This document shows, piece after piece, positions 21,121 through 22,725 of a stretch of DNA of 64,000 bases. Position 1 is the stretch's first letter; the number at the start of each line of letters is the position of its first letter. The notes under the pieces are model-generated. The model had not been told where the DNA came from and ran no database searches. It saw only the letters and a list, made by a program, of their open reading frames with translations. Made by a program: the position numbers and the translations under genes. Source of the stretch: Planctomycetota bacterium (GTDB lineage Bacteria > Planctomycetota > Planctomycetia > Pirellulales > Pirellulaceae); NCBI GenBank assembly GCA_014381825.1, contig JACNKX010000141.1, forward strand, positions 625-64,624, given 5' to 3'.

Positions 21121-21492
21121 ATGAAGAAAACAGAGATGCGAGTTTACAAGGAACGCTTGCTGATGATTCGCGCGCGACTTCGCGGTGACGTCCATGCGAT
21201 GACGGAAGCAGCCTTGAGCAAGACTCGAAGTGAAGCCAGTGGCGACCTCTCAAGCATGCCCATCCACATGGCAGACGTTGGAACGGACAACTATGAGCAA
21301 GAATTCACGTTGAGCATGCTGCAGAACGAGGAAGAGACGCTCGACCAGATCGAAGCTGCTCTTGAACGCGTCGAAGACGGGATCTATGGTTCGTGTGTCG
21401 AATGCGACGGTCGAATCACGAAAACCCGCCTCAATGCAATCCCCTACACGCCATTCTGCATCAAGTGCGCCAGCAAGCTCCAAGGCGGGTAA
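21121..21492 (+). CDS. DksA/TraR-family zinc-finger protein
   Basis: 123 residues from ATG 21121. A coiled N-terminal half (KERLLMIRARLRGD, MLQNEEETLDQIEAALERV) and a C-terminal C4 zinc finger (Cys92, Cys95, Cys113, Cys116 in CVEC and CIKC) match the TraR/DksA family. Such proteins bind RNA polymerase in the secondary channel and modulate transcription with ppGpp. It is shorter than E. coli DksA (151) and the coiled-coil tip is not the canonical D-x-x-D-x-A, so partner specificity is uncertain. Downstream lspA starts close by and is probably co-transcribed. Confidence 0.88.
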   Translation: MKKTEMRVYKERLLMIRARLRGDVHAMTEAALSKTRSEASGDLSSMPIHMADVGTDNYEQEFTLSMLQNEEETLDQIEAALERVEDGIYGSCVECDGRITKTRLNAIPYTPFCIKCASKLQGG

Positions 21493-21532
21493 GCCCTCCC
21501 TGGGCTGCGCTGCAGTTCCTCGCAGTCGTTAC

Positions 21533-22066
21533 GTGGTTTTCGGCACGGTTTCGACGTTGGGATGCGCTGCAGATCTCCTGACCAAACAACTGGTGTTCCA
21601 GTGGCGTGGCTTGCCGCGCGCGGGGAACGAATGGTGGTTGTGCGAGCCATACATTGGAATCGAGACGGCGGTTAACGAAGGAGCACTCTTTGGCATGGGC
21701 GGGGGGCATGGCCGCATCTTCGCCGGCCTTTCGATTGTCGCCGCCGTTGGGATCGTGGTGTGGCTATTTCGTTTCGGTGCCGCCCGAGACCGGTGGCTGA
21801 CCTGGGCCTTGTCCCTCGTGATGGGTGGTGTTTTCGGTAACCTCTATGATCGCCTCGGGTTATGGGTTCAGCCTGGGTATCCAGTGCAATGGAGCAGTGG
21901 CGTCCGCGACTGGATTCTCTTTCGCTATGGTGAATATACCTGGCCGAATTTTAATATCGCCGACGCGCTCTTAGTCTGCGGCGCGATCATGCTGATGCTG
22001 CATGCATTTTGGGAAAGTCCAACCGCCGAATCTGCGGAACAATCGAAGTCGGAAGCATCCTCGTAG
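21533..22066 (+). CDS. lspA: Lipoprotein signal peptidase (signal peptidase II)
   Basis: About 177 residues from GTG 21533. The start is uncertain: the open frame runs back to 21362, and an ATG at 21434 would overlap the DksA-like gene by 59 bases. The four helices and both catalytic aspartates are visible: GGVFGNLYDRLGL and FNIADALLVCG. The N-terminal TLGCAADLLTKQLVF is the normal first helix. The enzyme cleaves signal peptides from lipoproteins in the inner membrane. The C-terminus ends in a short charged tail (SAEQSKSEASS). The TAG stop is also the first three bases of a 129-base palindromic element, so the element abuts or supplies the end of the gene. Confidence 0.9.
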   Translation: MVFGTVSTLGCAADLLTKQLVFQWRGLPRAGNEWWLCEPYIGIETAVNEGALFGMGGGHGRIFAGLSIVAAVGIVVWLFRFGAARDRWLTWALSLVMGGVFGNLYDRLGLWVQPGYPVQWSSGVRDWILFRYGEYTWPNFNIADALLVCGAIMLMLHAFWESPTAESAEQSKSEASS

Positions 22067-22192
22067 TGCTCTATCACAGCTAAAAGTGAGGGCTGTCCAT
22101 CGTAGCGGATGTCGTGAGACTTCGGTCTTCCTTGCACTCTCCGAAGTCTCACGACGTCAGCTACCCTAAAACTAGGATGCGACAAAGCACTA
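22064..22192. repeat. 129-base palindromic (MITE-like) element overlapping the lspA stop
   Basis: Terminal TAGTGCT (22064-22070) and AGCACTA (22186-22192) are exact inverted repeats. A central perfect 15-bp hairpin (GTCGTGAGACTTCGG, 22111-22125, against 22141-22155) has a 15-base loop, and pairing continues outward to about 22103 and 22163. It has no coding capacity. The form is that of a non-autonomous mobile or repetitive element. I recall similar sequences from other planctomycete genomes but cannot check here. Confidence 0.8.
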
Positions 22193-22236
22193 GCCAGCGT
22201 TTGCAGCCTTAGTCCGCGCCGGTTTTGCCATTTCAT

Positions 22237-22264
22237 TGACAAATGGTCCGACTTTGTTAGATTG
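22237..22264 (+). promoter_or_regulatory. Likely promoter of the Rrf2 gene
   Basis: TTGACA (22237-22242), 16 bases, then TAGATT (22259-22264), 57 bases before the ATG. The -10 matches four of six. Rrf2 proteins often regulate themselves, but no clear operator is visible. Confidence 0.45.
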
Positions 22265-22320
22265 GTCGCACTTTGCATCCCCTATGGCCATCCCCCTACG
22301 GCCGACGTTGGACAAAAGCA

Positions 22321-22725
22321 ATGAAGCTATCCAGAACAGTCGCGTATGCAGTGCGTGCGACCATTCAACTGGCGCAGGACCCTTCGGACAGGCCAGTCCC
22401 GTGCAGCAAGCTTGCATCCGAGGGTAAGATGCCCGAGCGGTTCTTGCTCCAAATTTTGCGCAACTTGGTCACACACGGAATCTTACGTTCGACTCGTGGT
22501 GTTGACGGCGGGTATGCCTTGACGCGTCCGCCGGAGAACATCTCGCTTCTGGACGTTATCGAGGCGATCGAAGGACCGATGGACGCTGGTGAACCGACCG
22601 GCGATGGGTTGACCGAGGAATCGCAATTGAAGTTGCGAGGTGCATTGATCGAGATCACTCAGACCGCTCGGCAACAGTTGGAAGCAATCAAATTCTCTTC
22701 TCTGCTCGAGCCACCACAAGCTTAG
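22321..22725 (+). CDS. Rrf2-family transcriptional regulator
   Basis: 134 residues from ATG 22321. It has the Rrf2 plan: N-terminal KLSRTVAYAVRATIQLA, the recognition helix MPERFLLQILRNLVTHG and the wing RSTRGVDGGYALTRP, followed by ISLLDVIEAIEGP. The only cysteine, in VPCSKLA, lies in the DNA-binding half. The C-terminal half, where IscR and NsrR hold three cysteines for an Fe-S cluster, has none (SQLKLRGALIEITQTARQQL). So it is probably an apo-type or otherwise-sensing Rrf2 protein. It lies 19 bases upstream of the HisN-like gene and may control it. Confidence 0.9.
   Translation: MKLSRTVAYAVRATIQLAQDPSDRPVPCSKLASEGKMPERFLLQILRNLVTHGILRSTRGVDGGYALTRPPENISLLDVIEAIEGPMDAGEPTGDGLTEESQLKLRGALIEITQTARQQLEAIKFSSLLEPPQA

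Follow-up and report, generated by a model that had tools for sequence, protein, structure and literature searches.

What is the palindromic element that begins at the lspA stop codon, and did its insertion determine where the LspA protein ends? The locus was studied in a window of 64,000 bases (C36:625-64624 of the genome G000, a 9.69-Mb draft in 238 contigs), and the features discussed below are listed in Table 1. An earlier note had described a 129-base, MITE-like element with the termini TAGTGCT and AGCACTA and a perfect 15-bp hairpin. Its coordinates and termini were reproduced exactly, the perfect stem (GTCGTGAGACTTCGG / CCGAAGTCTCACGAC) lying at 22111-22125 / 22141-22155, and the first three bases of the element are indeed also the stop codon of lspA. 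In the lspA frame, homology started from about codon 2-12, and the gene was flanked by a DksA/TraR-type gene on one side and an Rrf2-type gene on the other.

Table 1. Features of the lspA locus (positions in the window).
Feature	Position	Strand	Basis
lspA reading frame	21491..22066	+	Peptidase_A8 (E 1e-26); aligned with five relatives; reading frame taken from 21491
TAG, stop codon of lspA, made of target TA and first element base	22064..22066	+	same stop position in element-free G001 and G002
Predicted IS630-type MITE, 129 bases including TA at each end	22064..22192		facing arms
Left 29-base arm	22064..22092	+	family profile match, E 1.1e-4
First GTAG-type REP of core (GTAGCGGATGTCGTGAGACTTCGG)	22102..22125	+	1 mismatch to 22-base REP pattern
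Second, inverted REP of core	22141..22164	-	1 mismatch to 22-base REP pattern
Right 29-base arm	22164..22192	-	family profile match, E 1.1e-3
Second TA, presumed target duplication	22191..22192		sequence and family flanks

The insertion had been thought to set the C-terminus of LspA, of which the last residues were described as non-conserved. Alignment with relatives confirmed that the C-terminal tail is variable. In the own genome and in two congeners, G001 and G002, MLHAF was alike followed by 18 residues up to the end of LspA. The stop codon was TAA in G001 and TAG in G002, and both congeners lacked the element at this position. Since LspA ends at the same residue in these element-free congeners, the insertion did not set its C-terminus. 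It is thus extremely unlikely that lspA was truncated or extended, with the TAG of the element as a new stop fixing the present C-terminus; such an event would suit an element whose first codon is TAG and a protein whose last residues are non-conserved, but the two congeners share the end residue, and two further genes carrying an element also end alike without it. Instead, the alignments indicate that the element appears to have gone into a pre-existing lspA stop codon and rebuilt that stop, leaving the protein unaltered. A promoter-like sequence (TTGACA-16-TAGATT, window 22236-22263) was observed upstream of the Rrf2-type gene, near-identical in G002 and, as judged by eye, similar in G009 (L017). 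This site is downstream of the element, which left it intact.

The two further genes were found on contigs C78 and C37. On C78, an element occupied the stop of a gene ending in RITRLAG; both congeners ended at the same place, and the site in G001 reads GGC TAG GCC, uninterrupted. The C37 element (L044/L047; G000:C37:69035-69165) had a predicted gene end on either side, belonging to two predicted convergent genes that each run up to the TAG at their own border of the element. With the flanks joined (ATCGCC-TA-GCGAAT), both genes would have shared one CTAG, and each now has its own TAG. The right-hand gene ended in LPQCQIIR in G000 and LPKCRIVR in G002; only this gene was compared, because the G002 match starts about 100 bases from a contig end. 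Thereby, the stop was independent of the element in all three gene ends compared (lspA, C78 and C37 right-hand; five orthologue comparisons).

The earlier note had named a lack of other copies as an argument against its reading; same-ended copies were in fact present in the genome. For counting copies, an 18-base consensus (up to 3 mismatches) was tried and rejected, giving 33 matches against 27 in the reversed control, near noise. Since it was too weak, a 29-base profile was used, and the argument is built on full-length arms that face each other. The arm consensus, TAGTGCTTTGTCACAGCTTAGATTTAGGG, was derived from an alignment of 16 copy ends, including the arms of the lspA copy, so that the E-values of these arms in Table 1 (whole-genome search) are not independent. 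In the lspA copy, the similarity of the ends extended beyond 7 bases to facing 29-base arms, identical at 19 of 29 positions.

At least 21 arm matches were found in the own genome at E<=10 (sequence-only profile; 150 of 2396 candidates scored). Under stricter filters, with 124 candidates scored per genome, arm matches at E<=0.001 were present in at least 10 of the 60 genomes, own included (G000, G001, G002, G016, G018, G025, G032, G041, G051, and G058). Dispersed copies thus occurred in the own genome and in at least 9 of the 59 others. Arms scoring below 25 and one of the 85 unique arms, with less than 150 bases of flank, were excluded before counting, as were paired elements with short flanks or no arm scoring 28 or more. 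The 29 paired elements comprised 28 short ones and an insertion sequence of G002. In five contigs of G016 (C121, C132, C175, C184, and C240), arms lay within about 130 bases of the contig end; this assembly was probably broken by the arm-bearing repeats. In addition, two loci of the own genome, L046 (G000:C15:52485) and L050 (C225:115843), had a GGAG-type core and a right end that by eye differed, close to TAGTGCAGCGTCACAGC, which suggests a sub-family with unequal ends.

The lspA copy has 129 bases and carries no transposase. In G002, two facing arms of the same family were found 1,232 bases apart (C269:13243-14474). Between them, on the minus strand, was a pair of frames matching HTH_32 (4.8e-15) and DDE_3 (1.3e-18), a domain composition typical of IS630-family transposases. 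The coding sequence was split over the two frames at a run of eight A; its pattern would fit frameshifting or decay, both being possible. In G025 (L101), an arm was followed by sequence similar to the G002 insertion sequence. In the own draft genome, a PF13358 profile search did not turn up an intact IS630 transposase bearing these ends; a 39-position match on C47 (L073) exceeded the cut-off, and another on C103 (L074) fell short of it. By eye, no family arms were seen in all of L073 or in 2000 of the 2282 bases of L074. Thus, a transposase with the same ends, such as the earlier note had proposed to search for, exists in the congener G002, whereas the own genome yielded short or weak IS630 matches only. 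The lspA copy is probably now immobile in its own genome; since the draft assembly may lack repeats, its mobility at present is to be taken as doubtful and not as excluded. The term MITE-like was nevertheless apt, given the same-ended copies in the genome and, in G002, an IS630-type element that shares these ends. Since the arms are shared with that transposase-bearing element and the copies recur, the 129-base element is, judged from sequence comparison, a non-autonomous IS630-type MITE.

The flanks of the copies pointed to a defined target. The base preceding the arm was C in 73 of 84 arms, and 20 of the 29 paired elements had C-TA...TA-G flanks, which fit a TA duplication inside CTAG. The family is therefore predicted to target TA, mostly within CTAG. 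The lspA copy, with TA at both ends, deviates from the others in that its joined flanks (TCCTCG-TA-GCCAGC) give GTAG, not CTAG. No exact empty lspA site was found among the congener sequences compared, and the spacer of G002 has diverged. According to the title of a report by Tenzen and Ohtsubo in 1991, CTAG is reportedly the preferred site of IS630. Within the IS630/Tc1/mariner family, the elements resemble IS630 in this CTAG preference and, by their presumed TA duplication, ISY100, an IS630-family element for which such duplication is described (PMC2170065); the lspA copy differs from both in carrying no transposase.

The interior of the element had a different affiliation. The core showed a GTAG tag, an imperfect hairpin, an inverted pair and many copies, and the central hairpin is accordingly a separate entity, namely a pair of resident GTAG-type REPs in inverted orientation. 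The REP pattern of the lspA core matched the genome 50 times, its reversed control not once, and 5 of these matches were inside identified arm-bearing elements (two each on C36 and C78, one on C227). Cores differed between copies, as the 28 short elements fell into 8 groups by shared 10-mers. Of these elements, 24 folded better than mononucleotide shuffles at z<=-2 (exceptions: L105, L107, L125, and L134). As single-stranded DNA, the 129-base element had a predicted fold of -33.2 kcal/mol, compared with -14.0 +/- 2.7 in 200 shuffles (z -7.1; 0/200 as good).

One core pattern was counted in G001, G002, G016, G018, and G041. It had 343 matches in G002 (control 2), 87 in G016 (control 1), 23 in G018 (control 1), and 19 in G001 (control 0); in G041, 4 matches against 2 in the control gave no signal. 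Arm matches numbered at least 9 in G002 and at least 26 in G016. Since core-pattern matches far exceeded arm matches, the palindrome is mainly a resident repeat in these two genomes. In G002, matches of this TCAGCCGCnnnGCGCTAGC palindrome often formed inverted pairs about 50 bases apart, and the difference from the congener G001 points to recent expansion or loss.

With such a core, the whole element might be regarded as a RAYT-mobilised REP/BIME whose arms are no more than chance flanks. The many copies of the GTAG REP pair elsewhere, the four Y1_Tnp matches in the genome, one of them adjoining GTAG hairpins of another sequence, and the description of REP ends as suppliers of TAG stops (PMC3733652) would agree with this. 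However, the lspA stop is within the arm, 38 bases ahead of the REP, and the same arms enclose unrelated cores, an IS630-type transposase and non-REP content (e.g., L099). Moreover, no RAYT flanked by the lspA-core REP was found at any of the four Y1_Tnp loci of the own genome (3.1-3.3 kb each), although REP families whose genome lacks a RAYT are on record (PMC3733652). Movement of the whole by a RAYT is hence most improbable, and the preferred reading remains an IS630-type MITE with a REP pair inside. The route of the REP pair to its place between the arms may have been REP transposition into the MITE or copying of filler in gap repair; both are candidates. The one Y1_Tnp match that adjoined several GTAG hairpins, their sequence being another one (L163; G000:C45:45140-45358), likely marks a RAYT/REP neighbourhood.

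A classical terminator for lspA was considered and dropped, none having been found in 21900-22450. The hairpin could nonetheless have been retained for a role in lspA RNA, whether as 3' end, stabiliser or terminator, which would be compatible with the MITE reading. A strong hairpin does follow the lspA stop immediately, and REPs and MITEs are said to act on mRNA in this manner (PMC3733652). Such retention is unlikely, given the lack of a terminator-like site in that interval and of the hairpin element in both congeners.

How often elements sit on stops was assessed with a codon score for gene ends, for which 34 frames of the window served as the training set. The first setting (mean 0.12, 80 codons) accepted 28 of 40 frames of at least 250 codons, the 40 including some overlapping shadow frames; a relaxed setting (0.08 over up to 120 codons, at least 50 open) was then used. 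For paired elements, the 50 open codons were lowered to 45 after the C146 element had been seen at 49, and this C146 gene may be spurious. CTAG and TA control sites, taken from the window and the fetched loci, were scored at the same relaxed setting as the paired elements. A predicted gene end was found at one or both TAGs in 11 of the 29 paired elements; 2 looked gene-interior and 16 were neither. Among the control CTAG sites, 30/328 were stops and 133/328 interior, and 215/7,884 control TA sites were stops. The excess at stops had a one-sided Fisher value of 9e-5 against all CTAG sites, and 0.003 when interior sites were removed (11/27 elements vs. 30/195 CTAG sites). At the 50-codon setting, counted per arm, 6/21 arms of the own genome compared with 14/336 CTAG orientations, and 10/63 arms of the relatives with 18/336. 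CTAG itself was not rare in the window (85 observed, 83 expected).

The preference for CTAG, together with the loss of insertions inside genes, accounts for much of the stop association. What excess is left depends on a crude score with cut-offs relaxed after inspection of the data. An element aimed at stop codons beyond the CTAG preference, via its transposase or the context of translation or termination, would explain the difference among non-interior sites; it is quite improbable, considering the small numbers, that score and its loosened cut-offs, and selection against promoter insertions, which would yield the same excess.

Taken together, the locus is very probably explained by an IS630-type MITE with a REP-pair core that was inserted in trans at TA/CTAG, neutrally at the lspA stop. 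An IS630-family transposase acting in trans would recognise the 29-base arms and insert the element at TA, preferably inside CTAG, with a TA duplication that is presumed for the lspA site. The element base after TA is G, and a TAG stop split as TA/G would regain the same stop; the lspA stop would have been entered in this way and LspA left unaltered. The REP pair would somehow have been placed between the arms, with sister copies holding other palindromes. Related copies, ends in common with the IS630-type element of a congener, TA/CTAG flanks and unaltered gene ends were directly observed.

IS630-derived MITEs are known from Streptococcus pneumoniae (RUP) and Neisseria (Correia elements), and those are described as similar in having about 100-150 bases, no transposase, IS630-type ends and a TA target (PMC2229807, PMC2817692). 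Unlike them, the element at lspA has an interior made of two resident REPs in inverted orientation, interiors vary between copies and genomes, and the family shows a preference for CTAG and stop codons. GTAG repeats have been reported from Planctomycetes, and ORFs adjoining a REP are stated often to take their TAG stop from its terminus (PMC3733652). The lspA core shares the GTAG tag and imperfect hairpin in an inverted pair with GTAG-type REPs and BIMEs; in contrast to these, the stop comes from an IS630-type arm, the REP pair is inside a DDE-type MITE, and no RAYT is tied to it. IS630 MITEs and stop-supplying repeats are thus already known, and the REP-pair cores look like a variant. In titles and abstract beginnings of the open-licence literature, no report of IS630 MITEs with host REP cores was found.

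The stop codon at lspA illustrates how a mobile element can enter coding sequence without cost, as a CTAG target and a TAG start make a TAG stop safe. It also calls for caution, in that a repeat supplying a stop codon need not have created that stop. The hybrid build of IS630 arms and REP core is the more interesting part. Tentatively, and with the balance somewhat against it, the arms might serve across this bacterial family and order as a shuttle for host palindromes, repeatedly acquiring a common host REP pair and, by virtue of the CTAG target and TAG start, settling protein-neutrally on stops, which would place a REP hairpin directly 3' of genes, or of two genes where a convergent pair shared a CTAG. 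If the hybrid cores hold up, DDE-type MITEs and REPs would be physically linked, and REP hairpins would gain a RAYT-free route of spread.
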